DNA of 64,000 nt from Pseudobdellovibrionaceae bacterium (GTDB lineage Bacteria > Bdellovibrionota > Bdellovibrionia > Bdellovibrionales > UBA1609): positions 62,001 through 126,000 of the forward strand of contig CANEZP010000004.1 of NCBI GenBank assembly GCA_947444305.1, read 5' to 3'. Under the pieces are notes generated by a model. The model worked only from the letters and a program-made list of their open reading frames with translations, was not told the origin of the DNA and ran no database searches. Positions within the stretch are counted from its first letter, which is position 1. Each line of letters opens with the position of its first letter. Positions 26,368-54,104 of this stretch are shown piece by piece. A program made the position numbers and the translations under genes.

Positions 26368-26381
26368 ACGCACCTCATGCA

Positions 26382-26436
26382 TTGTATTTCACAATTTATA
26401 ATTGTGTTTTTCAATAGAACTAGTTGTGAAACACAA
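26382..26436. promoter_or_regulatory. Three operator-like dyads, TTGTG-N3-CACAA type
   Basis: Three 13-bp sites: TTGTATTTCACAA (26382-26394), TTGTGTTTTTCAA (26402-26414) and TTGTGAAACACAA (26424-26436). The last is a perfect dyad with 5-bp arms; the others are one-arm variants. Starts are 20 and 22 bp apart, so they lie on one face of the helix. They occupy the region 15-70 bases upstream of the HTH gene start, the place for an autoregulatory operator. Confidence 0.6.
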
Positions 26437-26690: not shown

Positions 26691-27227
26691 ATGTCAAGTT
26701 CGAAACGTTACGCACTGAATAAAAACAAGTATTTGCTCGAGGCCGAAGTCGATCGGCTCAACCATATTTTGGATTCGTTCCAACTTAAGGACGCAAGAAA
26801 TTGCACGCTGCTTTGGATGCTTTTGCACTGCGGAGCCCGGGCGCAGGAAGTTTTGAATCTCAGGCCCGAAGACCTCAACGTTTACGAACAGTCGATATTT
26901 ATCAGGGGTTTGAAGGGCAGCAACGACCGGGAAATTCCGCTCCCCACCTGGCTTTTTCAAAAGCTTGAAGCGCAGGCGATGCGGACCAAGGGCGAGGCGC
27001 CGATTTTTCCAATCACGTACAATCGGCTTCGCCAAATATGGACGCTCTACCGGCCGGTGCATAAAAAGTTGCACGCCCTTCGCCACACGTTCGCGATCCG
27101 GCTCTTCAAAAAAACGAAAGATTTACGGCTTATTCAGGTGGCCCTCGGGCACCGAAATATCACCAACACGATGATCTACGCGGACTACATCTACAGTCAG
27201 GAAGAATTACGCAAACTGATTCTCTAA
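26691..27227 (+). CDS. Tyrosine recombinase, catalytic domain only
   Basis: A 178-residue site-specific recombinase/integrase. The active site is complete: Arg in HCGARAQEVLNL, Lys in IRGLKGSNDREIPL, HxxR in LHALRHTFAIRL, His in ALGHRNITNTMIYADY with the nucleophilic Tyr at its end. There is no room for the N-terminal core-binding domain of phage integrases; size is like FimB/FimE. Possible roles are DNA inversion, or resolution or mobility of a small element. No phage genes or attachment sites are seen around it. A/T content is high on both sides. Confidence 0.82.
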   Translation: MSSSKRYALNKNKYLLEAEVDRLNHILDSFQLKDARNCTLLWMLLHCGARAQEVLNLRPEDLNVYEQSIFIRGLKGSNDREIPLPTWLFQKLEAQAMRTKGEAPIFPITYNRLRQIWTLYRPVHKKLHALRHTFAIRLFKKTKDLRLIQVALGHRNITNTMIYADYIYSQEELRKLIL

Positions 27228-27518: not shown

Positions 27519-30500
27519 ATGTCCAAGGGGTGGCGTTTTCTAGCGCTCGTAGTTTTGATGATGTCTATGCCGCAGGCCTTTGCGGATAGTGCGGTGTCGG
27601 TCGTGTCTTTTCCTCGGCCCGAGGGCTTCATTAGCATCGACGATATCCAACGGATGTCGGAAGAAGAGGCCGGCAAAGTCCGCGACGATATGAACGCGGC
27701 GATCGTAGGTCTAAGAAAGGTCACCCGCCGCTCGGACAATGTGCGCATTCCGGTTGAGCGTATCGTCGAGGTGTCCCGCTACCAAACTCAAGAAGCGATG
27801 CAGGCTTTGATCATCCTCTTCAAAGAGGAGATGAAAAAGTTTAACGGCAAACCGCCGGCGACGGTCATCGTCTTTTTAACTACGCTGCAAGCGATCGGCG
27901 CGATGGGCAGCTCATCGCCCCACCGGCTACACGAAGCTTTGCTCGCGATGCTCAATGAGTTTGAAGGAAGGGTCGTGAAGACCGTTCTCGAAGGCGAAAT
28001 GGGCCATACGATCAACAAACTGAAATCCGTGATTGCGAAACGCCAACAAACGCTCGTCAATTTGAACGATCTTTTGCACGCGATCGAGCAAGCCAATAAC
28101 GGACCCGAAGTGGTGTTAGAGCGCGCCGAAAAAATTCTGACCGCGGGCTTGGTCGGCCAGCCGGAAGTAACGCAAGCGTTGTTGGACATGGAATGGAGAA
28201 GCGCCCTTTACGGCAAATCGCGATCGCTGCCCGACGCGATCTATTTACTGGGCTTGCCCGGAACCGGTAAGGACACGGCGGCCGAAGTTTTCGCCGACGC
28301 GCTCAACGGCGAAAAGAACAAACACAAAACCCACATGTACCGACTGCCGCTGATGAAACACCGCGCGGATCTTTGGCAGGTACTCGGCTCGTCGACCGGT
28401 TACGTCGGTTCCGAAAATTTGCCGCCCTTCCTGCAGTTCTTGGTTCACCACTCGGGCGGAAAATATAAGCTCGAAGAATTCAAAGACGGCAGCAAGACCT
28501 TAACCCGCATCATCGACAATCCGGATTGGAAGGGTGAATTGCTGCCCGGGTACACGGCGCCCAACCGCGGAATCGTTTTCGTGAACGAATTCCACAACTG
28601 GTCCAAACAGCTCAAAGATGATTTCCTAAAACAGGCGCTGGAAAAAGGCGTATTCACGATCAACAACCCGCAAGGGGGCTTGAGCGAGATTTACGTTCCG
28701 ATCCGCTTCGTGATCGCTTCGAACGAAGGGATTCGTTTAACGACTTCGCGCGAAGCGAACGGTCAACGCCAGGGCAAGCCGCTGACTTACGAACAGATGG
28801 TCAGCAAGTGGGAGCAGATCCACGAGAATAAACGCGCCCTCAAGGCCGAGATCTTGGCCAGCAACGGTTCGCCGAACCAAGCCGTCGTCGGTGAATCGGC
28901 GCCCGGCATCTCCGAAGAACTGCTGAACCGTATCCCCGAACGCTTCATCATGCTGATGCGTCCGCTTTCGCCCGAGCATTTGCAACAGATCGCGACCGGC
29001 TACCTCGAAAAGCTGCGTGAACGCCTGAACGATTCGCCCCTGCTCGGTAAAGTGGAACTCACCTGGACCAACGAACTCGTCGTGGCTTTGCAAGAATACG
29101 ACTACATCGCCGAAGAAAACGCACGGCCGGTGCTCGGCCGTTTGATGAGCTTGGTTGAAGAGCCGCTGCTCGACGCCGTTCGCGGCAGCAAGGTCGAACA
29201 GAACCAGAACATCCAGCTCGACATTCAAGTGAATCCCGATAATTCGCGCAGCCTCGTGATTAGCTCGGGCGACGACCGGGTCGTGAAGCAACTGATCCGC
29301 ACGACGACCAAGGATATCGCCAACCCGCCGATTAGCGATGAGCGCATCGACGAGATGTCGGGTCTTGAAGAACATTTAAAAACGAATGTCTTCGGCATCG
29401 ACGATGTGCTCGAAAGATTGAGCGAGCGCATCTTGAGCATCGAGAACGAAGCCACCGGCGCGAGCGCGCGGCCTGTCAACGCGATCATGCTCAATGGTTT
29501 GAGCTCGACCGGTAAAACCGAAACGGCTAAGCAACTCGCAAAGTACGTCCGTAAGGGCGACGATGAACTCGTCACCTTTGACTTCAGTCAGATTCAAACG
29601 CTGCACGACTTCAAGGTGAAGATCCTGGGCTTAAAAGACGGTCTGGGTAATCCCGTGCCTTCCGAATTCATGAAGTACTACGACCGCTCGAACGGCCGCT
29701 TCATCGTGGCCTTCGACGAACTCGCCAACGTCCGCGATATGGATTTACTGAAAGCGCTTTACGACTTCTTCCGGGAGCCGGTCGTATCGACGTTCTCCGA
29801 CGGAAAGCCGCGCGCTATGGGCGGCGTAACCGTCATCATCACCGGCAACCCCGGCCAGGAAATGTACGCGCAAGTGCCGCGCACGCCGCCGATGGAAGTG
29901 CAAATGCTCGCGTGGGCCGAGATCGCCAAGAAACTGAACAACGATCCCGAAATGCAACGGAGCGTGCTCGAAAAGTTTTATCCCGAGCCGTTCATCACGC
30001 GCATCGGTCGTAACAACATCTTCTTCACGCCGCCCCATTCGTACAAATCTTTACGCCAGCTCTCGCAGTTGAAATTGGGCCAGGCGCTTAAACGCATGGC
30101 TTCCGAAGATAGCCGCCGCGGCTGGAAGGTCGTATTCCCTTCGGCCGATGAGTATTCGAAATTCATCAATATGATCATCGATGAAGGTTTCTCGCTGCGC
30201 TACCAAGGTGCTTCGATCGAGTCGTTCGTCCGGGATGATGTCGAAGAAAAGGTTAAGTATTTATTGCTTAAGAATAAAGTGCCCTCGGGTTCAACCGCCG
30301 TCTTGAAGTATCGCTCGCAGACTTCGAACGAGTCCGAGGATACGCCCGGCCACGTTTACTATGACGTGTACGTCGACGGTCAAGATAAGCCCCTCGAATT
30401 GAAGATCCGCCGCCCGCACGTCGATCGCCCCTTGGATAAAGACGAAACGAATGATTTGCTCACCGCCTTTCACGAAGCCGGTCACAGCATCATCCGTAAC

Positions 30501-31346
30501 GCGCTCTTTAATAAGGTGTTCAAATCGACGATGATCTCGGTCATCCCGGGCATTTCGTTCATCGGCGATAAGTTCATTTACTATGCCGGCGTCGCGAAAT
30601 CCGAACAGCAACGGGAAGCGTACTCGAGCCGCGACTACATGGTTCGCCACATCGCGATTCTCCTCGGCGGCGAAACCGCCGAACGTTTGGTTTCGCGCGG
30701 CAGCCGAAGCTCGGCCGGGAAATCGAACGATGTTGAACGTGCCACGAAAACCGCGCGCGATGCGATCATCAAATATGGTTTGTCGGAAACTTGGGGCCTA
30801 CGCGCCGTTCCCGCCGGCACTAAAATGGAAGATTACATCGCGAGTCTTCCCGACCGCGAAAAGGTTTTGTTGAACCAAGAGGTCGACAAGCTTTTGAACG
30901 AAGGCCGAAAGCTCGCCGAACAAGTTTTGGAAGCGAACTTCAAAGACACGTTCATCCCGCTCGCCATCGACTTAGCCGAGCGCGGGGTGCTCGACGAAGA
31001 AGGGCTCGACGCTTTCTACGCCGAACGGACGCTCGTGGACCCTACGGTGATCTCGGCTTACCAGCGCACGATGAATCACGCGCGTACGGTCGGTCGCAAA
31101 TGGCGGAACCTCGGTCGTACGCCCTCGGGCGAAGTGCAACTCGACGCGAGCATCCCGCTCCCGAGATTTCACGCGGATCTGAAAGCCATCGCGGAAAAAG
31201 CGAAGGCTGATCAATACGCCGAAGTCCCGTTGCCCGCGAACGCTCCGATCGGTACCAACGCCGCCGCGAGCGCCGCGGAGAACGCAAAAGAGGCCGGCCA
31301 ATCGCCGGCGCAGCCCGCTTGCGCTGAATTCTTAAAAGCTAGTTAG
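27519..31346 (+). CDS. Exported double AAA+ ATPase fused to an FtsH-type M41 protease
   Basis: 1275 residues. It has a Sec signal (MSKGWRFLALVVLMMSM, PQAFA, cleavage near residue 22). Two Clp-like AAA+ modules follow: module 1 has Walker A GLPGTGKD (Lys251) and Walker B VFVNE (Asn356-Glu357, Asn in place of the usual Asp); module 2 has GLSSTGKT (Lys666) and VAFDE (Asp733-Glu734). The C-terminal third is a peptidase M41 domain: AFHEAGHSII (His985, Glu986, His989) and SNDVERATKTAR with the third zinc ligand Asp1071. FtsH normally has one AAA domain of another clade and a membrane anchor. There is a single Cys (near the C-terminus). GGGGGGG precedes ATG. The 291-base gap upstream (27228-27518) is AT-rich and shows no gene. 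Confidence 0.8.
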   Translation: MSKGWRFLALVVLMMSMPQAFADSAVSVVSFPRPEGFISIDDIQRMSEEEAGKVRDDMNAAIVGLRKVTRRSDNVRIPVERIVEVSRYQTQEAMQALIILFKEEMKKFNGKPPATVIVFLTTLQAIGAMGSSSPHRLHEALLAMLNEFEGRVVKTVLEGEMGHTINKLKSVIAKRQQTLVNLNDLLHAIEQANNGPEVVLERAEKILTAGLVGQPEVTQALLDMEWRSALYGKSRSLPDAIYLLGLPGTGKDTAAEVFADALNGEKNKHKTHMYRLPLMKHRADLWQVLGSSTGYVGSENLPPFLQFLVHHSGGKYKLEEFKDGSKTLTRIIDNPDWKGELLPGYTAPNRGIVFVNEFHNWSKQLKDDFLKQALEKGVFTINNPQGGLSEIYVPIRFVIASNEGIRLTTSREANGQRQGKPLTYEQMVSKWEQIHENKRALKAEILASNGSPNQAVVGESAPGISEELLNRIPERFIMLMRPLSPEHLQQIATGYLEKLRERLNDSPLLGKVELTWTNELVVALQEYDYIAEENARPVLGRLMSLVEEPLLDAVRGSKVEQNQNIQLDIQVNPDNSRSLVISSGDDRVVKQLIRTTTKDIANPPISDERIDEMSGLEEHLKTNVFGIDDVLERLSERILSIENEATGASARPVNAIMLNGLSSTGKTETAKQLAKYVRKGDDELVTFDFSQIQTLHDFKVKILGLKDGLGNPVPSEFMKYYDRSNGRFIVAFDELANVRDMDLLKALYDFFREPVVSTFSDGKPRAMGGVTVIITGNPGQEMYAQVPRTPPMEVQMLAWAEIAKKLNNDPEMQRSVLEKFYPEPFITRIGRNNIFFTPPHSYKSLRQLSQLKLGQALKRMASEDSRRGWKVVFPSADEYSKFINMIIDEGFSLRYQGASIESFVRDDVEEKVKYLLLKNKVPSGSTAVLKYRSQTSNESEDTPGHVYYDVYVDGQDKPLELKIRRPHVDRPLDKDETNDLLTAFHEAGHSIIRNALFNKVFKSTMISVIPGISFIGDKFIYYAGVAKSEQQREAYSSRDYMVRHIAILLGGETAERLVSRGSRSSAGKSNDVERATKTARDAIIKYGLSETWGLRAVPAGTKMEDYIASLPDREKVLLNQEVDKLLNEGRKLAEQVLEANFKDTFIPLAIDLAERGVLDEEGLDAFYAERTLVDPTVISAYQRTMNHARTVGRKWRNLGRTPSGEVQLDASIPLPRFHADLKAIAEKAKADQYAEVPLPANAPIGTNAAASAAENAKEAGQSPAQPACAEFLKAS

Positions 31347-31396: not shown

Positions 31397-34300
31397 TTAA
31401 TGGCAGGTCACGGTCCCGCCGGTGATTTCTTTACAGATCTCGTCCAAATACAAATTAAAAAGATGCAATGTCCGCTGTTCCATCAACCGTTCGATGCCGT
31501 AGGGTTTCGTCACGAGTTGGCTGACCGACGACCGTCTCCAGTAATCGCCTAACGCGGAATCGGAAAGTTCTTGTTGTTCAAGGTGCGCCAGCGCTTCTTC
31601 GCGCATCTCGAGCGTCCGTTGCACGATCACGGTCATGTATTTATGAAGCGTCTCGCGGTCGAGGTCCTGGTGCATATTCACGTGACGGTGCAAGACTTGG
31701 CGAACCGCTTCGAACTCGGGGTAGAGCAAGCGGTTGACGTAGCCTTTCTCCCAAAGATCACGTGGGCGATGAAGATGCTTAGCCTTGTTGAATTCGCTGT
31801 GCGGGTAATCGCGTTCGGCCTGCATCTCGGCTTCGACGGCGCGGCGCTCGCCGTAAACGATCATATCTTGTTGCCATACGTGGGCGACGGCGGCCTTCGC
31901 GGCGGCCTCACGGTCTAAACCGGCTTCGAGTTGCAGATGGTAATTTTCGAGCCAGATTTTGAAATGTTCCATTTCGTGCGCGAGCGCCGCGATGGCGCGG
32001 TCACGCAACAGATCTATACCGATGACGGGTATCAAATACGATTTCGAGGTCGGATCAAGATTGACCCAGAAGTAAGGCGACTCGAAGCCCCAGCCGGCAA
32101 ATACCTTTCTATCGGTCCCGGTGAGAATGCGGTTCTTCATCAAACGCACTTGCCCGCCGTTCTCCTTCACGAAGTCGATCATATTTTGCAGAACCGGATC
32201 TTGGACCGCGACGATCTCGGCCATCTCGTATTTTTCCCGGCGCTCGGTCAACTTTTCCCAGTAATAAGCGACGACCGGTTCCTCGAGTTTGCGATACGAA
32301 ATCTTATGATTGAGTTCGTGATATCGGTGACTTGTCGGATCTTGCCGCCGGCGGCCGAGGTGATCCCACCAGTCGCGGTCTTCGTTCATGACCTCACGAA
32401 GCGCCGTGGCCAGCGCGCCGTTCGTGCCGCGCAAAGAATCGAAGGCCGATTCGATCACGCGCGAGAGCATCAGCAAACTCTTGAGTTCATTCTCCGGATT
32501 TTGCGAAAAATCTCGCAGCCGCGAAGGCAGCGCGGCGGTGTCGCCCGGGAGCAAGTGCAGCAGCCCGCGCAGATCAAAGGATAAGTGCAGCGCCCTTTCT
32601 TTCAGTGACGTAAGATCTTCAGGGAACAAACCGATGTCGGCCGCGGTATCGACCGCTTTCCAAAGATCTTTTAAACCCGTCAACGCGGCGATGCCGTTTT
32701 CGACTTCCGAAGCGATCATGCGCGAATGGGGATAGGGGCGTTCGCCCGCGCTGTCGAGCCAATCGCGCAAACCTTTGAACCGGCCGATCTTATTCTCGAG
32801 CACCACGCCGATTCCGTACCCACCACCGCGTGAGGTGTTACTGAATAGCCCCCCAGGGGGCGCCGTACGCAGCAAGATAGAGTTCGGGCCGGCATTGACG
32901 GAGCCGTCGGGCTTCATCATCACGAACAGGCGAAGATCGATCGCAACGTCAACGGTGTTCGTCTCGTTCGCCATTGGGAGGGTGGCGATCGGGCTGACGT
33001 ATTGAATTTCGTAATCGCCGGGATTCTGTTTCACTTGCTGAAGCAACGCCGCCTTGGCGCCGGCATCCAGGTTGCGCAAAAAGAAAATTCCTGCGCCGCC
33101 GGAATTAGCGGGAGCTTTCACGACGAAGTCGTCGGGGTTTTTAAATAGAGGTTTTAACTTGTCGGGTTTAAGACTCGCCACCGGACTGGCCACTCCGCCG
33201 CGTACGGAACCTTTCGCGAGGTACTGGCTCACGATACGGAACAAGCGTTTGTCGTCGACCAAGCGCCCGCCGATATTGCTTACGTAGAGCTTACGGCTTT
33301 TTACGGCGCGCGCAATACTTCCTCGCGCGGCCGTCGGCCGCGCAGGGTCCGCGCCGATTTTATCCCACACATCTTCGAGCAAAGGCTCGCCGTGTTTGCC
33401 GCGTTCGACGCCGTCGATCGCGCCGTCCGGCCCGTAGGTCCAACGGTAAATTGCGCCCGGGCGAAGACGAAGACCCGTTTTATTCGCGAGGGCCGACAAA
33501 TCGGCGTACTGCGGGCTGATTAGCGGAATCTTCTCGTCCGTACTCTGCAGGAAAAACGATTCTTCCATGCGGTTGTATATGCCGGTGACGACCGGATCCT
33601 CACCGCCGCCGGCCGTGCGTAAACGAATACTTCCCCCGGCGTCTTCGTAAAGATCGCTGCTTTTGACGAGCGGCATGCCCGTATGCTTCGCGATCGCCGC
33701 GACGTCGGGGTGCGCGCCGTTGTAAATACCCGGACTGATCACGACCGAAATGCCTTCGCTCTTCGTCCACTCACGCGCGCTGAGTTCGATCGCCTCGCGT
33801 AAAAGAGTAAAAGTGTTGTCGCGCGGCAGGTAAGGCTTCAGCACGCGGCTTACGTCGCGGTCGGCTTCCAGCAGCGAATCCAACATCTCCTTATTATTGG
33901 CGAGCCCACTCGGCGTACCTAAGTTCATTTCAAAAAATACGTTTTGCGGTTTCGCAGGATCGACGATGGCACCGTCAAAACCACTGACCGCTAAAAAAGG
34001 ATATGCGGCCATCTCGCCCGAAATCATCGCCGGTTCCATGTAGATCGATTCGCGCAAAACTTTGAGCACGATCGCCGCTTCTTTTTCAGGCAACTGCGAG
34101 AGACCTAAAGATTCGGCCGTCCAGTTTTTTTGCGAATACGCTTTTTGCAAAAGCTCGCGCAACGACTTCAAGACCGGCCCCGTTGATTTGACCATACGAT
34201 CAAAATCTTTTTTCAGAACGGGCGCGACGTGCCCGTTTACCGGAACGGCGACGAACTTGTCGTAGAAACCTGTTTCCGGATTACGAACTTGAAAAGACAT

Positions 34301-34594
34301 TTCCTTGCGTGCGTGATCTTCGGTCAATCCGTCATCGACAATTTTTTGATAGTGGGGCGCGCGTTGCTTATAGATTGTGCTGAGTTCATGCAAGGCTTGA
34401 TGACGCTCTGAGTTTTCAAAAACGGAATCGAAACTAATCGTGGTGAGCGTCTTGAGAATTTCTTCACAAAGTTTTTCGCTCTCCGCATCGGTCATCGCAA
34501 AGGTCGCCGGCGTAAGCGCCGCAACTGCAACGATAAGGAACGCTATTTTCAAAAATCTTAAGACTCTCTCATAATTCAGACTAATGTTTTCCAT
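31397..34594 (-). CDS. Exported circularly permuted ATP-grasp protein with C-terminal HExxH domain
   Basis: 1065 residues with a signal peptide (hydrophobic IAFLIVAVAALTPATFA, cleavage about residue 33). Residues 180-620 match the circularly permuted ATP-grasp ligase pattern: FFEMNLGTPSGLANN, VVISPGIYNGAHPDVAAI with MPLVKSSDLYED, GGRLVDDKRLFRIVSQYL, FVVKAPANSGGAGIFFLR (ATP-binding Lys) and VDVAIDLRLFVM. Near the C-terminus AALAHEMEHFKIW (His873, Glu874, His877) is a zinc-peptidase motif, with ERRAVEAE as a possible third-ligand segment. Such ATP-grasp enzymes form amide bonds, so ligase and peptidase activity may be combined. Convergent with the AAA+-M41 gene and divergent from 34724. Only 3 Cys. 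Confidence 0.68.
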   Translation of the reverse strand: MENISLNYERVLRFLKIAFLIVAVAALTPATFAMTDAESEKLCEEILKTLTTISFDSVFENSERHQALHELSTIYKQRAPHYQKIVDDGLTEDHARKEMSFQVRNPETGFYDKFVAVPVNGHVAPVLKKDFDRMVKSTGPVLKSLRELLQKAYSQKNWTAESLGLSQLPEKEAAIVLKVLRESIYMEPAMISGEMAAYPFLAVSGFDGAIVDPAKPQNVFFEMNLGTPSGLANNKEMLDSLLEADRDVSRVLKPYLPRDNTFTLLREAIELSAREWTKSEGISVVISPGIYNGAHPDVAAIAKHTGMPLVKSSDLYEDAGGSIRLRTAGGGEDPVVTGIYNRMEESFFLQSTDEKIPLISPQYADLSALANKTGLRLRPGAIYRWTYGPDGAIDGVERGKHGEPLLEDVWDKIGADPARPTAARGSIARAVKSRKLYVSNIGGRLVDDKRLFRIVSQYLAKGSVRGGVASPVASLKPDKLKPLFKNPDDFVVKAPANSGGAGIFFLRNLDAGAKAALLQQVKQNPGDYEIQYVSPIATLPMANETNTVDVAIDLRLFVMMKPDGSVNAGPNSILLRTAPPGGLFSNTSRGGGYGIGVVLENKIGRFKGLRDWLDSAGERPYPHSRMIASEVENGIAALTGLKDLWKAVDTAADIGLFPEDLTSLKERALHLSFDLRGLLHLLPGDTAALPSRLRDFSQNPENELKSLLMLSRVIESAFDSLRGTNGALATALREVMNEDRDWWDHLGRRRQDPTSHRYHELNHKISYRKLEEPVVAYYWEKLTERREKYEMAEIVAVQDPVLQNMIDFVKENGGQVRLMKNRILTGTDRKVFAGWGFESPYFWVNLDPTSKSYLIPVIGIDLLRDRAIAALAHEMEHFKIWLENYHLQLEAGLDREAAAKAAVAHVWQQDMIVYGERRAVEAEMQAERDYPHSEFNKAKHLHRPRDLWEKGYVNRLLYPEFEAVRQVLHRHVNMHQDLDRETLHKYMTVIVQRTLEMREEALAHLEQQELSDSALGDYWRRSSVSQLVTKPYGIERLMEQRTLHLFNLYLDEICKEITGGTVTCH

Positions 34595-34723
34595 AACCCC
34601 TCAACTCTCCCACTCGCCCCGATGGGAACTTCGATCGAAACTTTTTTGTTTTCGCAGATTGACTGAATTCGATTCAAACTAATACGGTTGCTGCACATTT
34701 CGATTTCTGGGGGGCTAGGGTCA
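34595..34723. promoter_or_regulatory. Divergent promoter region with two palindromes
   Basis: 129 bases shared by two divergent genes of the cluster. On the plus strand TTGACT (34659-34664) and TAATAC (34680-34685) could be a -35/-10 pair with a short 15-base spacer. That spacer largely consists of a dyad, TGAAT-TCG-ATTCA (34664-34676). A second palindrome, TTCGATCGAA, is at 34630-34639. Regulator unknown; promoter call is tentative. Confidence 0.35.
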
Positions 34724-37700
34724 ATGGAATTAATTGCATTTGCGTATGCATTTGTACGAAACGCTAAGATATCGGGCACAGTTGCCGCATTTTCACTCTT
34801 ATTTCAGCTTATTCAGGCCGGCGACGTCGCCTACGCCAGGGAAACCAAGCATCCCGACGATAAAATCTTACGTGCGCAGCTCTTCAGCACTAAATTTTTA
34901 AATTTCGCGAATTCGCAGCGAGACGCGCATAAAAATCCATTGCCGGCGAACGTTTACTATAGCTCGGAGATCATGACCGACGTGATCGCCCAGGACATCA
35001 TCGATCATAACTTCTCACGTCCGCTGTTTCGTGACGACCTGGCCGATCAAGCCTTAGACGTCCTGATCCGCGAAAAGGGCAAATATCCCATTCTCATCGG
35101 TGAACCCGGCGCCGGAAAAACGGCCACGACCGAATTGATGGTCTACAAAATCTTAGCGCGCGATTATCCCGAGACAAGCGCCTACCGTCAGGCGTTCTAC
35201 GACGCCGTCGTGTTACGCGTGAGCGCGCGCCTCTTCATCCCCGGCGGAACCGATCTCAATTCCTACATGAACACCGTTCAGTTCATTTCCAAAAGCCTGA
35301 ACCGCAAAATCATAGTGCAAATGTTCGAAAGCCAATTTCTTAACGATTACAACGTCGGCGTCTTACGCGAATTGGCCGACAAACGCGACGGTGGCGTTCC
35401 CGTCGTTCTCGAAACCGACTCGAAATCTTACGGCAATACCATCAAAAATCACCCTAGCTTTAACTCCATCTCGCGCGCCATCATGGTGCCGCAAACCTCG
35501 ACCGCCGAGACGAGAGCGATTATCAAAGAGCAACTCCTTCCCCGCTTAAATGCAGAGCTGGATGTCACGCTCGACGACGATATTCTCGAGACCATTCTCG
35601 ACCTAGCAAAAGATTACGGCCGCGACTCGGCCGATCCACGCCGCAGCCTTTACCTGACGGAAGAATTTGCGATCGATTGGAACCGCCGCGGCGCGACCGG
35701 CACACAGCCCACGCGTTTCGACCTCTATAAATTCGTCGCGCGCGAAGCCCGCTTCCCGGTCATTCCGCAAAACGAAAAAGAATTTTCCGAGTACATGGAA
35801 AGTCTCCGTGAGCGCGTAAAGAAACGTGTCGTCGCGCAAGATACCATCGTCGACGGCTTGATCGATCAATTTCGCACGGCGCTCACTTCGCGGATCCGGC
35901 AACACTCAGTCGCGATGATCATGGGCCCCACCGGCGTAGGTAAAACTTTGTCGGCCGAGGTTCTCGCCGAAGAATTCTACGGCGACCGTGACCGCGTGCT
36001 CGAACTGGACATGACGCAATTCGGGGATGCGACCGGCTTAAATACTTTATTCGGCGCTTCGAACGGATACATTTCGTCGGATAAAGAAAAAGGCGTCGTG
36101 TGCGAATTTCTCGACGGGCCCGGTAAGGGCGGCGGCGTTTTAATCTTGAACGAAATTGAAGAAGCGCACGGCGAGGTCTTCACCCGCTTCATGGAATTGT
36201 TCGACAAAGGTGTAGTTCGTTGCGGTGACGGCCGGTTACGGCACCTCGGTCGCTCACTCATCGTGATGACTTCGAATAAAAATACCGACCGCATCTTGTC
36301 GTACGACGCCATTCGTGGGATGAGCACGCAGGAGCTCGACCGCAGGCTTTCGCAGATCACCCAGGATCAGCTCAAAAAAGCATTCAGCGAAAAAGCATCG
36401 TACACTCAGAGCGATTCGAAGGTCGTGAAGTCGGCCGTACTCGAAAGGGTCGATCAATTTTATTTCGCTTCACCGTTGCTTCAGGAAAATGCGGTCGCGG
36501 TTTCAAATCTTGAGATTAATAAGTTCGTCGGCGCGTATAACCGCCAAAGCAAAAGCGTACTCGAGGTTGACCCGTCGTTTGGTTTTGTTTTGACTAGCGC
36601 ATTCTACAACGAATCTCTCGGCGCGAGGCAAATCCGTACCGCCGTTCAGCAATCCATCTCGAACTCGGTTCAAGACTTCAAAAAGCAATTTGGTTACGAT
36701 TCAAGCCGGTTGGTCATATCCGCTAAGCTTCACCCGTCACGCAAAACATCTTCGTTCATTACCGTCACGGACCCCGACACCGGGCAGGAAATCACGAATG
36801 ATGGCCCGCGCGTGCCCGTGGTCAACAAAATGCTCGACCCCGAATTCCGCCAGCGCCTGGTGGACTTTGAGGCAAACCTTAAAACCGAAGTTTTCGGGCA
36901 AGACGAGACGATCGCCGCCATGGCGTCGGCCATCAAAGCGCGCTTTTTGCGCGGCGGTAAAGGCGACGTCGTCGCCGGTTTTCTCATCGGCGCCACGGGC
37001 GCGGGAAAATCGCAACTCGGAAAATCTTCGTCAAAGGCTCTCTACGGCCGTGCGGAAGCCTTCGTGCTCATCGAGATGGGCAAAGTTCAAAATGCATTGG
37101 ATATGTACAACATCTTCTCGCCGCCCAAGGGCATCATCGGCTCGGACGCACCGGGCCTGGTCGAGCAATTCTTAATTCAATACCCCGATGGCGGAACGCT
37201 GATCTTCGACGAAATGAGCAACGCCGGCGGCGGCAATCCCGAAATCAAAGCCGCGATCGCCAAGCAATTCTATACGATGATCGAAGAAGGCATTTACCGT
37301 AATCCCGCGGGCAAAGTTTATGACCTGAGTAACCATCTCCTCATCATGACCGGCAATGACGGAGAGGAAATCTTTAAGGGTTTAAGCAGTGACTCATTGC
37401 TGGAGCAACAATACCAAGAAGCCACTAAAAATCCGGAGCTGGTTAAAGAACTGCTACGCAAAGCCGGCTTTACCGATGCGTTCCTCGGCCGCCTAAGCTT
37501 CGCGCAATTGATGCGCCCCACGCTCGGTGACATCAAGATCATGATCGCACGTAAGATGCTGAACCAGTGGCGCAAGGAAGTTGAAGCGCAACAACCGTTC
37601 GATATCCAGTACGATGAAGACTTCGTAAAACAAATCGGCCATCTTATGTACTCACCAAAATCGGGCGCTCGCTCGATCAGCCACTTCATCTCGTCAACCA

Positions 37701-38662
37701 TGGGTAAGGCCGTGGCGAACGAAGCACTAAAGTTCAACTGGGAAGAGCTTTTAGAAAAAGGACAGCGGGGGCAAATCACCTTGAGCTTGGCCGTCGACAA
37801 AGTCGACACGCCTTTCTACGCAGGCAAAGAGCCTTACAAAAACAAAGCCGAGATTTACGTCACAGCCTCGCACAACGGCCAAATCGTAAGCGCCGCCACG
37901 GTTGACTTCTCCGGCTCCGCCAACTTCGTGCCGCAAGTCCACCGCGAGATCGCCGAGGCCACCGCTTATCACGAGATGGGTCACTTGGTTGCGGCCTTCA
38001 CCGAAATCACCGGCAAGAAGGTCATCAAGCTCACGATCGTGCCGGAAAAAATCGGGCCCGATCTCAACGCTCTCGGTTACGCGCAACATAAGAAAGTGCC
38101 GTCGAAGGTCGAGCCGAACCGCGATTACCTGCTCGCGAATTTGGCGGGCTTACTCGCCGGCTCAGAAACCGAAATTCTTTTCGGCAAAGCACGCACCACC
38201 GGGCGCAGCAACGACGTTGAGAGAATCGGAAATCTCGCGCGCTCAATCATCCTCGAAAATCACCTCGTGCCCGAGCTCGATGCCGCGCACGCCTACGTCG
38301 GCAAGGACGGCTCCATCGTCGGCAACCTTCCACCGGGCTTACGCAAGACTTTCGATAGCTACGTCGCGGCCGCCATCGCCGATGCGCGGAAGTTAGCGCA
38401 AAAGACGATCAAAGAAAATTGGCACGTCATCGTCGCGGGCGCGGAACTCTTGCTCGAGCACCACAACCTTTCTGAGAAAACGATTGAACGGCTACTCGAG
38501 CGCGGTGAAAGCATGAAAAAGTCTCCGACGCTTAAGCAAAGGGCGTTAGCGCTCGTTGGTTACTCGGACAAAGTTCCGTTCGTCATGGACACCACGGGTA
38601 TTTTTCGCACGCCCGAAGAAGAAAAAGCCGATTGCGAGAAGGACCTGAGCCGTGAGCAATAA
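34724..38662 (+). CDS. Exported triple AAA+ ATPase fused to an FtsH-type M41 protease
   Basis: 1312 residues from ATG 34724 (the frame is open to 34688, but this ATG follows a G-rich SD). N-terminal signal with hydrophobic ISGTVAAFSLLFQLI and an AYA cleavage site near residue 39. Three AAA+ modules: ClpB-D1-like GEPGAGKT (Lys132) with a degenerate Walker B (IIVQMFES), ClpB-D2-like GPTGVGKT (Lys407) with LILNE (Asn476-Glu477), and GATGAGKS (Lys762) with LIFDE (Asp829-Glu830). Then M41: AYHEMGHLVA (His1083, Glu1084, His1087) and RSNDVERIGNLAR (Asp1164). It is a longer paralogue of the 27519 product. It overlaps the next gene by 11 bases. Three Cys only. Confidence 0.8.
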   Translation: MELIAFAYAFVRNAKISGTVAAFSLLFQLIQAGDVAYARETKHPDDKILRAQLFSTKFLNFANSQRDAHKNPLPANVYYSSEIMTDVIAQDIIDHNFSRPLFRDDLADQALDVLIREKGKYPILIGEPGAGKTATTELMVYKILARDYPETSAYRQAFYDAVVLRVSARLFIPGGTDLNSYMNTVQFISKSLNRKIIVQMFESQFLNDYNVGVLRELADKRDGGVPVVLETDSKSYGNTIKNHPSFNSISRAIMVPQTSTAETRAIIKEQLLPRLNAELDVTLDDDILETILDLAKDYGRDSADPRRSLYLTEEFAIDWNRRGATGTQPTRFDLYKFVAREARFPVIPQNEKEFSEYMESLRERVKKRVVAQDTIVDGLIDQFRTALTSRIRQHSVAMIMGPTGVGKTLSAEVLAEEFYGDRDRVLELDMTQFGDATGLNTLFGASNGYISSDKEKGVVCEFLDGPGKGGGVLILNEIEEAHGEVFTRFMELFDKGVVRCGDGRLRHLGRSLIVMTSNKNTDRILSYDAIRGMSTQELDRRLSQITQDQLKKAFSEKASYTQSDSKVVKSAVLERVDQFYFASPLLQENAVAVSNLEINKFVGAYNRQSKSVLEVDPSFGFVLTSAFYNESLGARQIRTAVQQSISNSVQDFKKQFGYDSSRLVISAKLHPSRKTSSFITVTDPDTGQEITNDGPRVPVVNKMLDPEFRQRLVDFEANLKTEVFGQDETIAAMASAIKARFLRGGKGDVVAGFLIGATGAGKSQLGKSSSKALYGRAEAFVLIEMGKVQNALDMYNIFSPPKGIIGSDAPGLVEQFLIQYPDGGTLIFDEMSNAGGGNPEIKAAIAKQFYTMIEEGIYRNPAGKVYDLSNHLLIMTGNDGEEIFKGLSSDSLLEQQYQEATKNPELVKELLRKAGFTDAFLGRLSFAQLMRPTLGDIKIMIARKMLNQWRKEVEAQQPFDIQYDEDFVKQIGHLMYSPKSGARSISHFISSTMGKAVANEALKFNWEELLEKGQRGQITLSLAVDKVDTPFYAGKEPYKNKAEIYVTASHNGQIVSAATVDFSGSANFVPQVHREIAEATAYHEMGHLVAAFTEITGKKVIKLTIVPEKIGPDLNALGYAQHKKVPSKVEPNRDYLLANLAGLLAGSETEILFGKARTTGRSNDVERIGNLARSIILENHLVPELDAAHAYVGKDGSIVGNLPPGLRKTFDSYVAAAIADARKLAQKTIKENWHVIVAGAELLLEHHNLSEKTIERLLERGESMKKSPTLKQRALALVGYSDKVPFVMDTTGIFRTPEEEKADCEKDLSREQ

Positions 38663-39866
38663 ATTAATTGCGCTCACCCTCGTGTTCTCCGGGCTTCAAG
38701 CGGCCGCCCTTAATGCCGGGAAACCGCCCTTCGTGCCGCCGCCGATCGAGGGTATTTTCGGTTCCGAATTCACGGTTACCTACGACGGTAAAGTGTCTGA
38801 GGAAAAGCGCGTCGAATTAGTGAATCACCTGCGCAAGCATTTGATCGCGGATCAGCCCGAAGGCGCCAAGTTTAAAGAACTTGTCCTCGGCTCCTCAACC
38901 AGCACGTCGAATGAAAAATTCGAATCGCCCAACAAATGGTGGCTGCAGGTAACTAAAAACCCCGGCGTAATCGAGTTTAAGAAAAAACCGATGACCATCA
39001 AAGAGACCAAGCGCTTCAAATCCGATATCCAGGATGCAATCTTCGCAAGCAGCGCGGCCGTAGGTCTTTTCCCCTGGGATTACCTCGGGGGCGGGCACCT
39101 GAATATGGACACCAATATCTTCGGCAATAACGTTCGCTTAGCCCGGAACTTCGTCGTTGATTTTTGGAACCATAATGAGCTCGCAATGGGCATCCTCAAC
39201 TACGACACCAATAACGCCATGCCGTTCCAGCACTTCACCTACGATGTCCAACGAAGATTGATGGCCGTCATTCATCGTGCGGACATGGGCGGATTTACGA
39301 ATACGATGAGCGGCGTGCAGGATTTTTTTTCGGCGCTGGATTATATCCAAAACAACGCGGCCAATGTGTTCGGTACCCAAGCCAAGGGTAAACATCACGA
39401 TCTTAACTTCAGTCACCGCGGTCGTGTCGAGATAAGGTGCGTACGTCCCCAACCGAACATGGACGTGTGGGTGAACCAGATTGAGTTGATCGAAGGGCGT
39501 ATCAACAATTACCTACGTTTGATCGAAGAGCCGATCCCGTACAAGATGCGCGTCCCCATTACCTCCGTCTTGAACATCGCCGAAGGTGACCCCACGGGCC
39601 ATCGTTACGTCCCGCCGATCAATCCGCAACTCGCGTTACGTAACTTCCACCAGTACGTCACAGAGTCGCATTTGGATTGGCGCGATCATCGCGGTTACGT
39701 CTGGCCGCCGTGGGCGCGCGGCAACGTGCACGTCACCGATTTAGAGCGAGGGAGTGAACTCGAGAAATTCGAAAAAACGGAATTCTTTATTGTGCGTGAC
39801 CGTATGGCTAAACTTCGCAATCGTGCGCGCACTTACTCGAAGTGCAACGCCGAACTGGTCAACTAG
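38652..39866 (+). CDS. Exported amidoligase-like protein, paralogue 1
   Basis: 404 residues, GTG start with AGAAGGA eight bases upstream, overlapping the AAA+-M41 gene by 11 bases. Signal peptide LIALTLVFSGLQAAALNA. It is a close paralogue of the next gene. Shared blocks: FGSEFTVTYDG, KSDIQDAIFASSAAVGLF, YLGGGHLNMDTNIFG, RNFVVDFWNHNELAMGILNY, RVEIRCVRPQPNMDVW and NQIELIEGRINN. The G-x-E-F-T, GGGH and E-x-R-x-x-R-P elements in this order resemble carboxylate-amine ligases of the glutamine-synthetase/GCS fold. That is pattern-based, not proven. Two Cys. Confidence 0.5.
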   Translation: MSNKLIALTLVFSGLQAAALNAGKPPFVPPPIEGIFGSEFTVTYDGKVSEEKRVELVNHLRKHLIADQPEGAKFKELVLGSSTSTSNEKFESPNKWWLQVTKNPGVIEFKKKPMTIKETKRFKSDIQDAIFASSAAVGLFPWDYLGGGHLNMDTNIFGNNVRLARNFVVDFWNHNELAMGILNYDTNNAMPFQHFTYDVQRRLMAVIHRADMGGFTNTMSGVQDFFSALDYIQNNAANVFGTQAKGKHHDLNFSHRGRVEIRCVRPQPNMDVWVNQIELIEGRINNYLRLIEEPIPYKMRVPITSVLNIAEGDPTGHRYVPPINPQLALRNFHQYVTESHLDWRDHRGYVWPPWARGNVHVTDLERGSELEKFEKTEFFIVRDRMAKLRNRARTYSKCNAELVN

Positions 39867-39875: not shown

Positions 39876-40991
39876 GTGGGCGGCCTGCGGCTCGTTCTTA
39901 TTTTAGCGGGCTTGCTCTTGGGCGCGAACTTACGTGCGGCGGAAGGCCGCTTCGGGCCCGAATTCACCTTTACGTTCGACGGAATGGTCCCCGCCGAAAA
40001 GAAGCAAGAATTCTTCCGTCATCTTCGTTATCACCTGATTAAGTTCCAGCCCGAAGCCGCCCGCTTTCAAATCGAGATTGATTTAGCCGAAACCGGCACC
40101 TCCACTTTTACTTCGCCCAACGGTTGGTCCTTCAAGGTCACCGAAGATCCGGGCGTGCTTGAAGTCACCATGGATCCCATGACGGTGGCTGAATTTAGAA
40201 AGTTCAAATCCGATATCCAAGACGCGGTCTTCGCGAGCGCGGCGGCGGTTGGACTTTACCCATGGGATTTCCTCGGCGGTGGCCACATCAACGTCGACAT
40301 CGGTATCTTCGGCGGCAGCCTCCTCCTCGCCCGCAATTTCGTCGTCGACTTCTGGAGCCATAACGAGCTCGCGATGGGCATTTTTAATTACGATCCACTC
40401 AACGCCGTTTCCCTATCGCTTTACCGGTTTGAGCACATCGAAAAAATCCGTGAAGTGATCGCGCGCTCGGACGCAGGGGAATACGGCGAAGGGACGCAGG
40501 CTATCGAACGATTCTTCGCAGCCTTAAACAAAGTGCTCCGCGCGGGAACGAGCTACTTCGGTGACGGCAAGAAAGAAAAAGCGACGGACCTTAACTTCGG
40601 GCACGTTGGCCGGATCGAAGTCCGCTCGGTTCGACCACAAAAAAATATGGACGTCTGGCTAAACCAGATCGAGTTAATCGATGCGCGAATCAATAATCAC
40701 CTCGCACCGATGACCGAACCGCTCCTGCTCAAGTTTGAAGTGCCGCCGCAATTTCCGCTTAACTTTAATCGTGGTCCGTTGAGTCACCTGCTCTCTCCGC
40801 CCGTGCAACCGAAGCGTGCGCTGCGCGCGTTTCACCGCTACATTCTGGAAAGCAAACTCGACTGGAAACATCACACCGACTACACTTGGCCCGCCTGGAA
40901 AATGACCCACCTAGCTGAATTTGAATGCGAGAAAGTTTTGGAGACTCAGAAGCGCACCGCATTAACTCCATTAACAAATTTTCAGCATTAG
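39876..40991 (+). CDS. Exported amidoligase-like protein, paralogue 2
   Basis: 371 residues, GTG start with AGGTGG six bases upstream and 10 bases after the preceding stop. Signal peptide LRLVLILAGLLLGANLRA. Same blocks as paralogue 1: FGPEFTFTFDG, KSDIQDAVFASAAAVGLY, FLGGGHINVDIGIFG, RNFVVDFWSHNELAMGIFNY, RIEVRSVRPQKNMDVW and NQIELIDARINN; the ends diverge. This points to an old tandem duplication with both copies kept under constraint. Possible function: amide-bond formation on proteins, peptides or muropeptides, as in amidoligases. One Cys. It closes the transcription unit that starts at 34724. Confidence 0.5.
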   Translation: MGGLRLVLILAGLLLGANLRAAEGRFGPEFTFTFDGMVPAEKKQEFFRHLRYHLIKFQPEAARFQIEIDLAETGTSTFTSPNGWSFKVTEDPGVLEVTMDPMTVAEFRKFKSDIQDAVFASAAAVGLYPWDFLGGGHINVDIGIFGGSLLLARNFVVDFWSHNELAMGIFNYDPLNAVSLSLYRFEHIEKIREVIARSDAGEYGEGTQAIERFFAALNKVLRAGTSYFGDGKKEKATDLNFGHVGRIEVRSVRPQKNMDVWLNQIELIDARINNHLAPMTEPLLLKFEVPPQFPLNFNRGPLSHLLSPPVQPKRALRAFHRYILESKLDWKHHTDYTWPAWKMTHLAEFECEKVLETQKRTALTPLTNFQH

Positions 40992-41436: not shown

Positions 41437-44016
41437 ATGTCGAATTCTGGCATTTCTATGTCTGTAGCGCGCCTTGCATTGGCGTTCGTTTTTTTAACCA
41501 ACGCAACAACCGCATTTGGGGTGCCGGCAAAACGGACTCCCCGTGCAGGCAAAGCGGCCGCTACCGGCGCAACCGCTGCCACCGATATGGTTTGCTTACA
41601 GGAACTGATTCTTTCCGAAGAACCGGAAACTTCCGGCCTCGACTACTCGATGGATGTCTTCAAGGTAGAAGAACTTTTCTACCCGGGCGAGAAAAATTTG
41701 GCTTACCGCTACCCGAGCATCGTGATGTCGGCCGCGCAAGTTTCTAAGCGTTTGATCTACCGAAATTACGGAAATTTCACTACGCCTTACATCGAAGTGC
41801 CCGAGCCCACTTACCGTCATAAAAAAGTTAGAATTTACGGTCTATTCGCGGCAGGCTCCCCGACGACCAACGGCCGGATGATCGTGGATCAATACGAAGC
41901 CACGGAAGAAGTCGTCAACTTCGTCGATGCGAAAGCCGAAGGCCAAAAAATCGGGAACATCAAGGTTTTGCAAGCCGGTCCCGGTACCGGTAAGACCGAA
42001 ATGGGTTACGCACTCGATAGCGCGGCGATCAATCTCGCGGCGACGGATCCGAACTACGCCGAAATTAGCTTTCGCTGGAAAGCTCCGATCGCGGAAATCC
42101 CCTACCTCCGCCGCGCGGTCAGCGTTGATAAGTCTTCCGGAAAAATCACGCTGATCAACCAACCGATTCCGAACGACAGCATTCTCGGGCTTTTCCCGAA
42201 GAAGATGTACGAGAAAATCGTAGCTCAGGCCGCCGGCAAAGTTGAAGCCGAATTAAATATTCCGCCCTTACCCGTCCCCCACCTCGATCCGCGCAATAAA
42301 CAAATCCTTCAAGCCGTAACCGAACATTTCATGCGCGAAAAAGGCATCACCGACGGCAATACGATTACCGAACGTCAATACCTCGAAATGCTCGAGCACT
42401 ACGTAGAGCTTTACCGCCGCACGCCCGATTCGGTAAACGATTCGCGCATCATCCGTTACGCCGGCGAAAACCCCAACTTCGGCAAAATCTTTGCGGAGGA
42501 AAAATTGCTCACCGGTTCGATCTACGGCTCGACGCCGCTCGGCTGGGATTACGGTCAGGTCGCTCGCGCCAACCGCGGCGTTGTGTTTTGGGATGAGCTC
42601 TACCGCCAGTCCGAAGAATTCATCAATACCGGCCTCGATATCTCGCAGAACAACGTACTCAGCTACGGCGGTTCGCCCGGCTTCACGATGGATGCGCTTC
42701 ACATCGGCGCAACCAACGATGAATCGGTGGATAAAATCATTAAGAACAGCTCGACCGGCGTCGGCGCGAGTTTAGATCGCGCGGATATCATTCCGATGCG
42801 TCAGCCGATTCACCCGATGCAGGCCGCGAAAATTGCGTTGTTACTGATGATGGGTGACAACAAATTGTGGGTCAAAGACCTGAACCCGCAAGGTTCAACC
42901 GAAGGCGAGTGGCGCATCGGTCACCTGAACGAAGTCATCACGCTGCCGAACGAACGCGGCGTGATCACCGGACCCGACAACCGGCTCGCCGTCAAAATCA
43001 GCCCCGGAGGTCCCGATCACCGCAGCGCCGTCGTCATGGCTCCGCGTACGCTCATCCTGATGGGATTGATCGCGGCGGGAACCCGCATCGAGACGGATAC
43101 GAAAAAACTGAAAGAGCACACCAAAGACAGCTCGATCGCTTCGCTCAATCAACAGTATTTCGTTGATCCCGAAAAACGGATGCAGATTATCCTCGGCATG
43201 CTCTCGGTCGACGCACCGATCAAAGCCGAATTGACCCGCCTGCGTGACGTGCTTCAAGAGGGACGCGAGGGGATCTCGGCGCGCGATACCGAAAAATGGT
43301 TACGCGTCGTTATGGATCAGGCCAAACGTAAATATCCTAACGAACCTACCGCGACGCCGGCCATCGTGCTCGAACGTCTCAATTGGGCAATGAATAAAAA
43401 GAAACTTATTCCTAAAGGCAGCCAGGATAAAAGCACGTGGTGGAATATCGCTCGCCTTATGCAGCACAAATTTCTTGTTCGCTTCTTGCTTGATGATTTG
43501 CGCGCCATCGAAACCGGTGACCCTGATCGCGTACGCAAGCTTTACGATGACGTTGCCCGCGACATCGTTCGTTTAAGTTCGCAAGTTCGCGACAGCGCAC
43601 GCGAAACGGATTCCGAAGCCTCGGTCGGAGATATCGTGCCGATCGATTGGAAGCGTTACGACGAAATCCGCAAAATCTTCGCGGACCAAAACAACGGCCA
43701 GGTGCTCGAACCGGTCGGCGCGTCCAACGAACATCTCAAAGCGGACGCCATGAAAGAAGTTTGGCAGCCCCTTTACCAAGCGGTTGAAGCTTACATCATC
43801 GAGAAAGAGCTCAGCACGAGCTTAAGCAGCGGGGTTGAGGATTACTTTGTGGGTGATAAAGAAGTGAGCCCGGAAGCCGCCAACGCCGGCATGAAGGCCG
43901 AGAGCATCATGGCGCGATTCGGTTACAACCGTCCCGCGATCATGGACTTGTACAAGATCATTAAAGATTTCCGGCGTGACCAAGCGATTCGTCAACGTCA
44001 ACAGACCGTACGATAG
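41437..44016 (+). CDS. Exported PrkA (YeaG)-like AAA+ protein
   Basis: 859 residues with a signal peptide (RLALAFVFLTNATTAFG, cleavage near residue 28). The AAA+ module has Walker A AGPGTGKTEM (Lys186) and Walker B VVFWDE (Asp386-Glu387). The region ARANRGVVFWDELYRQ, then NNVLSYGGSPGF and IGATNDES, corresponds to the PrkA/YeaG segment around A-N-x-G-x-x-E-F-x-E, Q-E-G-N-Y and H-S-N-E-S. The C-terminal 350 residues match the helical part of PrkA only loosely, so kinase activity is not assured. Cytoplasmic PrkA proteins lack signal peptides. It precedes the giant AAA+ gene by 18 bases. One Cys. Confidence 0.68.
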   Translation: MSNSGISMSVARLALAFVFLTNATTAFGVPAKRTPRAGKAAATGATAATDMVCLQELILSEEPETSGLDYSMDVFKVEELFYPGEKNLAYRYPSIVMSAAQVSKRLIYRNYGNFTTPYIEVPEPTYRHKKVRIYGLFAAGSPTTNGRMIVDQYEATEEVVNFVDAKAEGQKIGNIKVLQAGPGTGKTEMGYALDSAAINLAATDPNYAEISFRWKAPIAEIPYLRRAVSVDKSSGKITLINQPIPNDSILGLFPKKMYEKIVAQAAGKVEAELNIPPLPVPHLDPRNKQILQAVTEHFMREKGITDGNTITERQYLEMLEHYVELYRRTPDSVNDSRIIRYAGENPNFGKIFAEEKLLTGSIYGSTPLGWDYGQVARANRGVVFWDELYRQSEEFINTGLDISQNNVLSYGGSPGFTMDALHIGATNDESVDKIIKNSSTGVGASLDRADIIPMRQPIHPMQAAKIALLLMMGDNKLWVKDLNPQGSTEGEWRIGHLNEVITLPNERGVITGPDNRLAVKISPGGPDHRSAVVMAPRTLILMGLIAAGTRIETDTKKLKEHTKDSSIASLNQQYFVDPEKRMQIILGMLSVDAPIKAELTRLRDVLQEGREGISARDTEKWLRVVMDQAKRKYPNEPTATPAIVLERLNWAMNKKKLIPKGSQDKSTWWNIARLMQHKFLVRFLLDDLRAIETGDPDRVRKLYDDVARDIVRLSSQVRDSARETDSEASVGDIVPIDWKRYDEIRKIFADQNNGQVLEPVGASNEHLKADAMKEVWQPLYQAVEAYIIEKELSTSLSSGVEDYFVGDKEVSPEAANAGMKAESIMARFGYNRPAIMDLYKIIKDFRRDQAIRQRQQTVR

Positions 44017-53500: not shown

Positions 53501-54104
53501 CCGCTTGCTGCGCGAACAAGACTGGTGGGTCAAGGGCACGCGCTATAAACCAAATCCGGATATTAAAGCCGTGATGTACATCGTCGTGGATTTATCGGGC
53601 AGCATGAGCCAGTGGTTCAATACCGTAAAAAAGATGAGCGTGGACTTACGCGCGCTCCTCCAAGCGAAGTACCCGAGCGTTGAAATCCGTTACGTGCCCT
53701 TCGACGGCGACGCCCACGTTCTCGAAAACGTCGATGACCTGCTACGTATTCAACTCGCGGGCGGCACAAGCTACGGCAAAGCCTTCGGCGCGACCCACAA
53801 GCACATGGACGCGAACTTCCCTTACTCCGAGTGGGATCGCTACGTCGTGGTGCAAGGGGACTTGATCGATTTCCCGAGCGAACCGGATCTCGACAACTTC
53901 AAGAAGATGCACGAACGTGCGCAGTACACCGGCGTCTTGCACACGGGCGGTTGGGACTTCGGGGGCGAGGAAAGCTACTCGGGAATGTTTCAACAGAAGA
54001 AGATCGACGATCCGTTCTTCGGTTACGAGAAGATCGCGAGTCCCGGGGACTACGCACCTATCATTTACCGCGATTTGTTTAAGAATCCGCCTAAGGAACA
54101 GTAA
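50571..54104 (+). CDS. Exported SpoVR (YcgB)-DUF444 (YeaH) fusion
   Basis: 1177 residues with a signal peptide (LVFAFVLVLLPPAISFA, cleavage about 23). Residues 60-430 match SpoVR/YcgB: LSIINHAYLGHAWFAVH (VMAHACYGHNSFF in YcgB), then KNMNEGWSVLM (the MNEGWATFW signature) and TNPYYIGYEAWKIV (NPYALGF). A Pro/Gly/Asp-rich linker lies around 845-890. The C-terminal 200 residues match YeaH: WWVKGTRYKPNPDIKAVMYI, then VVDLSGSMSQ with an intact MIDAS (Asp1007, Ser1009, Ser1011) and AGGTSYGKAFG. In E. coli YeaG, YeaH and YcgB are separate cytoplasmic proteins. Here two are fused and exported beside a PrkA-like protein. Three Cys. Confidence 0.75.
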   Translation: MINLQRLVFAFVLVLLPPAISFAADDDKLDPKIVAQPEVEVDFDQLFGKQRITACEMDLKSGKTTLISSGRDEDTLPKYIEYVHSLTKKGGMMHKLGMELPPHVFLFIPGQLAGVLSAMNMVPMGHHHDGARVAQGQSVASGILELVFPGGQHSFYRDDMNAYQQLSIINHAYLGHAWFAVHSKYSAVRTAEAISDSYKLYEMMERAYLEHDPVEVAEWYSFLLALEWDQDTIKGVEESPEMFRKFTDANRLKENKQRLFQVPRTRNTMAYLISDLPNDLPKWKLDMARQFERLRRYIPGAINTKNMNEGWSVLMQEIGQAHADVGRDFPHHMEYCCLLKGIGTASGNLGRDLTNPYYIGYEAWKIVRENFHVRPDMFNKTLIEKDKAFIAWATKELINKMDDRDFFAYALSDKWILRKNLTLTRNLGLWDPLERPVNGDPNQFKPPGKVENVSKDPAQIRRALIRHKEDSLLQIPTAAVRPMRERGGVFELEMIDGLGKFQPLKTRSMVAKLWTMSRMLQKPVAMESTYITKKVETVWEGGWDYWLGQWVDRLYQRRTEAPEFLRIHTTVYPEGRVETRKVYRNKITGPASVEDPDKYNIAPPAARQFEAFPDATERFQGFLDEFLVDWHADYDLDEAIARVPRLGQNDLLKFWTTTSSMGDGNITSSDNISTEVFDHSPTVPRALHEYHKKVSSRLAPALKKALFGRGRPTVRNGNLRIRVLPEIPAFQYNTTLDGKKLWKNPSSFSPKGPMDWLAKQPMIATQDVRGPLINDLMQAGKVPSAVFEEVNRTLSESHISPANFISLLQRISPPKKAITTAAADGTLDDEELDIDGNPSPEGDINWGPGKPPQGEGKPDQDGEPAEPRPGEDPADGHGGDPNDPDFVDIPPGIWGRILSEEIELPNTRPLDDDDNRRTKVLGKKARRKAGTARPELISREAFKLGISDLQNESEFDHPDDMLDALTEDPQGTHARGFRLLREQDWWVKGTRYKPNPDIKAVMYIVVDLSGSMSQWFNTVKKMSVDLRALLQAKYPSVEIRYVPFDGDAHVLENVDDLLRIQLAGGTSYGKAFGATHKHMDANFPYSEWDRYVVVQGDLIDFPSEPDLDNFKKMHERAQYTGVLHTGGWDFGGEESYSGMFQQKKIDDPFFGYEKIASPGDYAPIIYRDLFKNPPKEQ

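Follow-up and report, generated by a model that had tools for sequence, protein, structure and literature searches.

The window—the whole 64,000-nucleotide stretch of DNA analysed here, lying on contig C4 of a 4.17 Mb genome—encodes a protein (protein A) in which two AAA+ modules of the Clp/Hsp100 D2 type are joined on a single chain to an FtsH-type M41 zinc protease. This architecture, the intact motor and protease residues, a conserved signal-like N-terminus and a conserved C-terminal cysteine motif are established by sequence. We interpret A as an exported, single-chain ATP-dependent protease, acting most likely in the cytoplasm of prey or in opened prey, a reading that could as well prove wrong as right, with the hexamer, threading, activity and site of action all inferred. 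Export together with a shared terminal Cys motif makes A notable. The features of A are as follows.

27519..31346, + strand: protein A (1275 aa), comprising signal peptide, AAA module D1, AAA module D2, M41 protease and terminal Cys
27519..27584, + strand: signal peptide (residues 1-22), predicted cleavage AFA/DS (heuristic)
28116..29288, + strand: D1, Clp-D2 type, with Walker A 245-253, pore loop GYVG 294-297, Arg finger 471 and sensor-2 R536
28584..28589, + strand: D1 Walker B Asn-Glu (N356 E357), in 17/18 orthologues
29316..30308, + strand: D2, Clp-D2 type, with Walker A 660-668, Walker B E734, sensor-1 N777 and Arg finger R828
30447..31007, + strand: peptidase M41 domain (Pfam PF01434, 1.3e-17)
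30471..30485, + strand: HEAGH zinc and catalytic motif (985-989), in 18/18 orthologues
30726..30731, + strand: N1070-D1071, third zinc ligand motif, in 18/18 orthologues
31320..31334, + strand: terminal Cys motif CAEFL

The gene is one unbroken frame, placed by the first-pass annotation at these same coordinates. Orthologues are likewise single open reading frames, of ~1250-1460 aa, in most other genomes that hold A; a few are broken up or truncated at contig ends. The fusion is therefore no assembly error, and we rejected an artefactual origin.

Pfam searches of A returned Peptidase_M41 at residues 977-1163 and AAA_2 at 652-829, both above cut-off, as well as ClpB_D2-small at 483-566. Across 18 orthologues, M41 was found in all, AAA_2 in 15 and ClpB_D2-small in 12; the Torsin model matched seven. 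Of the NCBIfam models, FtsH matched over the M41 part only and ClpV, ClpB and ClpA over the AAA part; A scored 69.5 bits against the FtsH equivalog TIGR01241 (cut-off 600 bits), 55.7 of 1232 bits against full-length ClpB and 43.2 of 993 against ClpA, far under the cut-offs. A profile built from the alignment of the 18 orthologues, which also underlies the residue assignments given here, found its best PDB matches in the D2 modules of ClpB and Hsp104 (3e-30), its matches to FtsH chains being confined to the protease domain. A tree of 48 AAA modules placed both modules of A inside the Clp-D2 clade (98/92), with A-D2 sister to the third module of a paralogue, C (92/89), and the genome's own FtsH apart on a long branch. 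Profile search and tree thus show the AAA modules of A to be of Clp/Hsp100 D2 type and not of the FtsH clade, and they exclude A as an ordinary FtsH. The first-pass annotation had read two Clp-like modules ahead of an M41 domain, had proposed HMM domain calls and a AAA clade phylogeny as checks and had named FtsH-clade AAA modules or a missing M41 match as refutations; both claims held, M41 with a clear match and all its zinc ligands.

The alignment gives the Walker A motifs as GLPGTGKDT in D1 and GLSSTGKTE in D2. Walker A, the catalytic Glu, sensor 1, the arginine fingers and the zinc site (H985, E986 and H989 of HExxH, kept in 18/18) are conserved among orthologues, which points to an ATP-driven protease maintained by selection although exported. 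The Asn-Glu Walker B of D1, already remarked on in the first-pass annotation as NE in place of DE, is a conserved feature; the single exception, in genome G044, is degenerate and has lost its D1 residues. Most of the C-type proteins that were checked have the same Asn-Glu in their second AAA module (one has Asp-Glu), and the Asn could weaken hydrolysis in D1. The Walker B motif of D2 reads DE, with EE in a few orthologues, and A carries QG in D2 in place of the usual sensor-2 Arg.

By a heuristic based on hydrophobicity, charge and an A-x-A site, the N-terminus of A, MSKGWRFLALVVLMMSMPQAFA/DS, fits a signal peptide. At equal settings, 16 of the 18 orthologues with an intact N-terminus scored, against 36% of other nearby open reading frames of ≥200 aa (p ~1e-5), and the two without a score (G044 and G136) have a hydrophobic N-terminal stretch by eye. 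The earlier proposal that a signal peptide replaces the membrane anchor of FtsH is supported to this extent; topology remains an inference. Since the literature holds the periplasm to be free of ATP (PMC4907695) and ATP is thought absent outside the cytoplasm, an exported ATP-driven protein is surprising, and the retention of its ATPase residues suggests that A should meet ATP after export.

The first-pass annotation overlooked this ATP problem, the terminal Cys motif, the paralogue C and six exported neighbours. The surrounding cluster consists of the following genes.

26691..27227, + strand: tyrosine recombinase beside the cluster (PF00589, 1.5e-21), a relative of which flanks A in genome G137
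31397..34594, - strand: B, exported circularly permuted ATP-grasp protein (PF14403, 7e-19; relatives exported) with a C-terminal HExxH and a Cys motif near the mature N-terminus (LCEEIL)
34688..38662, + strand: C, paralogous AAA-AAA-AAA-M41 protein, 1324 aa, with a signal-like N-terminus and C-terminal CEKDL
38652..39866, + strand: D, exported, ~50% identical to E, overlapping the end of C, with C-terminal CNAEL
39876..40991, + strand: E, exported, with invariant G-x-E, E, H, D and E-x-R; possibly amidoligase-like (weak)
41437..44016, + strand: F, PrkA-like AAA protein (PF06798, 0.0052, below cut-off) with a signal-like N-terminus
44035..50574, + strand: G, exported giant of 2179 aa with a Walker A/B module and C-terminal CDRLL
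50571..54104, + strand: H, exported SpoVR-DUF444 fusion (DUF444 1.8e-13, SpoVR 2.3e-7, both over cut-off)

Paralogue C starts 3.3 kb downstream of A. Its first module is sister to Clp D1 (100/99), so that C can be described as Clp (D1 plus D2) with a further D2-like module and M41, and A as two D2-like modules with M41. Most C-type paralogues share the domain order, export signal and Cys motif; they occur in ~20 of the 141 genomes of the order, the remaining matches being ordinary Clp or shorter relatives. The genome of A also has a separate, ordinary FtsH (236 bits, 667 aa). A third exported AAA-M41 protein lies in this same genome, G000 (C17:2599-4623, - strand; locus L008): it has 675 aa and one AAA module, lacks HExxH and ends in CLADL.

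Signal peptides were scored by the heuristic in B, D, E, G and H and recognised by eye as signal-like N-termini in F and C, most of whose relatives score; B and D to H, or their relatives, also carry Cys motifs. The genes for C, D and E are closely packed and those for G and H overlap. The HExxH segment of B reads ALAHEMEHF. For E, searches of PDB and Pfam found nothing; comparison with Amidoligase_2 by hhalign gave a weak match (probability 49.5, E 1.7e-4), and none of 22 family members had a Pfam match. The F-G-H unit (window positions 41437-54104) is conserved and often adjacent in the order: F has relatives in 16 of the 141 genomes, and relatives of F, G or H occur in 14-17 each, adjacent in several. 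We regard F and H as an exported counterpart of the PrkA-type operon of Bdellovibrio, represented in B. bacteriovorus by the PrkA-DUF444-SpoVR operon bd0228-0231 (PMC5430801), with the reservations that export rests on the heuristic and that the PrkA likeness of F is weak.

The only Cys of A, C1268, lies eight residues from the end in a column conserved at ≥90%. Counted as C-x-x-[LFYIVMAW]-[LFYMI] (approximately C-x-x-[LFY]-[LFY]), the motif is C-terminal, within the last 18 residues, in four families (A 19/21, C 19/23, E 16/22, G 9/13) and closely follows the signal peptide in three (F 11/15, H 8/12, B 7/10). Within these families, internal windows have it at 0-3% (0.12% per window in A), and it was absent from the cytoplasmic controls (0/5 Clp, 0/5 amidoligase proteins). 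A looser form, C-x-x-x-L, appears in several proteins of the window (CEKDL, CNAEL, CLQEL, CEMDL). These rates are merely descriptive, because the related sequences counted are those from which the pattern was derived. A first pattern, used on proteins other than those of the A/C family, gave no excess among proteins with signal peptides; a second gave some excess at both ends, A proteins being included in the count. With the third and loosest, the motif was in excess at the N-terminus, both in the genome itself (10 against 2.5 expected) and in relatives (8 against 1.9), but own-genome proteins without a signal peptide also had 26 against 14.6. As the excess depends on the pattern and extends to proteins without signal peptides, the motif is strong only in the families named. 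The idea that it marks all exported proteins was rejected: beyond these families the evidence is weak and pattern-dependent. Sorting, anchoring or disulphide formation each remain possible roles, and the open-access literature that we searched, which left out most subscription journals, contained no description of such a motif.

Several further occurrences were recorded. The motif sits at one end of many exported proteins of unrelated families (window positions 27519-54104 and many other loci, among them L199, L204, L207, L222, L242 and L069:15585-18896). At L010:3275-6653, three successive exported proteins have SCLxDL just past the signal peptide. At L067:13284-16454 and L069:15585-18896 (G001 and G029), exported proteins with an FGE-sulfatase domain lie directly downstream of C-type proteases and carry the motif close to their mature N-termini. 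A 1929-aa protein of G000 (C1:216005-221791, - strand; L166/L167) has a signal-like N-terminus and a single Cys close to its other end (TCNDLL); part of it resembles PARP/ART, at a Pfam value of 0.059 that misses the cut-off.

Among the 141 genomes of the order we count ~25 true orthologues of A (29 matches, four of them C-type), so about a fifth of genomes carry the gene; one more, also full-length, comes from a genome of the same class but not of the order (G272), and elsewhere in the phylum there are a few weaker matches that resemble C. A mostly stands alone in other genomes. Here, A and B to H lie between the tyrosine recombinase and fatty-acid genes; G137 has similar flanks around A without the rest of the cluster, G117 has F, G, H and A in a row, and G063 has the same flanks without A. 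These differing contents between shared flanks give the site the look of a variable locus. An HTH gene and the recombinase (window positions 25864-27227) adjoin the cluster here, as they do A in G137, and may mark a variable insertion locus. A and F-G-H occur together in eight genomes against 2.8 expected (p 0.002), or in six against 2.0 without the genus of the window (p 0.006); this was one of six family pairs tried, without correction for relatedness and with two weak matches left out. E does not co-occur with A, C or F-G-H. Searches of plasmids and phages for close copies of A returned only pieces of Clp/TssH or FtsH, none covering 80% of the query, PADLOC gave only general Clp-type AAA matches, and a Clp-M41 fusion was not found in the open-access literature, with most subscription journals outside the search.

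In the mechanism that we propose, A would be exported by Sec and become active where ATP is available. Its two modules would stack as hexameric rings, gripping proteins through the GYVG-type pore loop of D1, unfolding them and feeding them to a ring of M41 domains on the same chain, and prey protein would be degraded as food or in attack; A would be one of a larger group of exported proteins tagged with Cys, several of which use nucleotides. The first-pass annotation had already called A a self-contained unfoldase-protease and had suggested predicting the hexamer to see whether the pore leads to the M41 site. The former is a sound inference that has not been shown; AlphaFold models of A and E, built on 2-3 sequences, reached pLDDT values of only 38 and 42 and are too poor to use, so hexamer and pore, including the path to M41, remain inferred.

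Prey is the favoured site because ATP is thought absent from the periplasm, the ATPase residues are kept and Bdellovibrio-type bacteria live on other cells. Against this stand the lack of any identified outer-membrane or prey-entry route and of expression or localisation data; that this MAG lineage is predatory is itself an assumption from its relation to Bdellovibrionales. For the motor, the Asn in Walker B of D1 and the loss of the D1 residues in G044 are further points against the preferred reading. The choice of the prey cytoplasm over its main rival, the producer's periplasm, is thus one of inference.

That rival, which remains possible, makes A a periplasmic quality-control protease of the producer, running on very little ATP or on imported ATP, or acting chiefly by nucleotide binding, as a counterpart of torsin in the ER and of human CLPB. 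The Torsin matches in 7/18 orthologues, the activity of human CLPB in the mitochondrial intermembrane space (PMC9934407) and the Asn-Glu Walker B of D1 speak for it; the conserved hydrolysis residues of D2, the conserved Arg fingers and the absence of a known ATP supply in the bacterial periplasm (PMC4907695) speak against it. Less likely is a membrane-anchored, cytoplasmic housekeeping protease with an uncleaved N-terminal anchor and a motor facing the cytoplasm. FtsH is itself anchored in this way and the cytoplasm has ATP; however, the single hydrophobic stretch, preceded by positive charge and followed by A-x-A, would place the rest of the chain outside, a normal FtsH is already present, the gene occurs in only about a fifth of the order and the Cys motif is common to other exported proteins. 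Least credible is a single exported tag-and-degrade machine in which B and D/E modify, A and C degrade and F-G-H regulate. In its favour are the packing of C, D and E, the overlap of G with H, the signal-like N-termini throughout, the weak Amidoligase_2 match of E and the co-occurrence of A with F-G-H (adjacent in G117); against it, A is mostly alone elsewhere, E co-occurs with none of A, C and F-G-H, and the fold of E is unproven.

To return to the preferred reading, ATP-dependent proteases are regarded as machines of the cytoplasm, the matrix or membranes, and A is conserved and exported with its motor residues intact, which raises the question of its ATP source and suggests a part in the digestion or injection of prey by predatory bacteria. 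A bolder and more tentative extension is that Bdellovibrio-type bacteria export whole ATP-dependent machines (A, C and the PrkA-like, giant AAA and ATP-grasp proteins) into other cells, and that the terminal Cys motif, at whichever end of the mature chain it stands, labels these and further exported proteins for sorting or anchoring. Were it a sorting signal, the arsenal that an entire bacterial group exports could be catalogued by means of it.

Among known systems, A resembles FtsH in having an M41 domain with HEXXH and a third Asp ligand, and in carrying AAA motor and protease on one chain; FtsH, in contrast, is membrane-anchored and its single AAA module is of the classical kind, where A has two Clp-D2-type modules and a predicted signal peptide. 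With ClpB/Hsp104 and ClpA/ClpC it shares D2-type modules, a GYVG-type pore loop and an expected two-ring layout, and C adds a Clp-D1-like first module. Clp motors are cytoplasmic and, unlike A, are not known to have a fused protease. Torsin and human CLPB (SKD3) are, like A, ClpB-D2-type AAA proteins and act beyond the cytosol, as is inferred for A, but they lack a protease domain and reside in the eukaryotic ER lumen or intermembrane space (PMC4320221, PMC9934407). Among the neighbours, F (weakly PrkA-like) and H (SpoVR and DUF444) recall the PrkA-DUF444-SpoVR operon (yeaG/yeaH/ycgB), from which F-G-H differs in its predicted export, in the fusion of SpoVR to DUF444 and in the giant AAA protein G lying in between. 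The pairing found in A shows that an M41 chamber can be joined to Clp-type motors.
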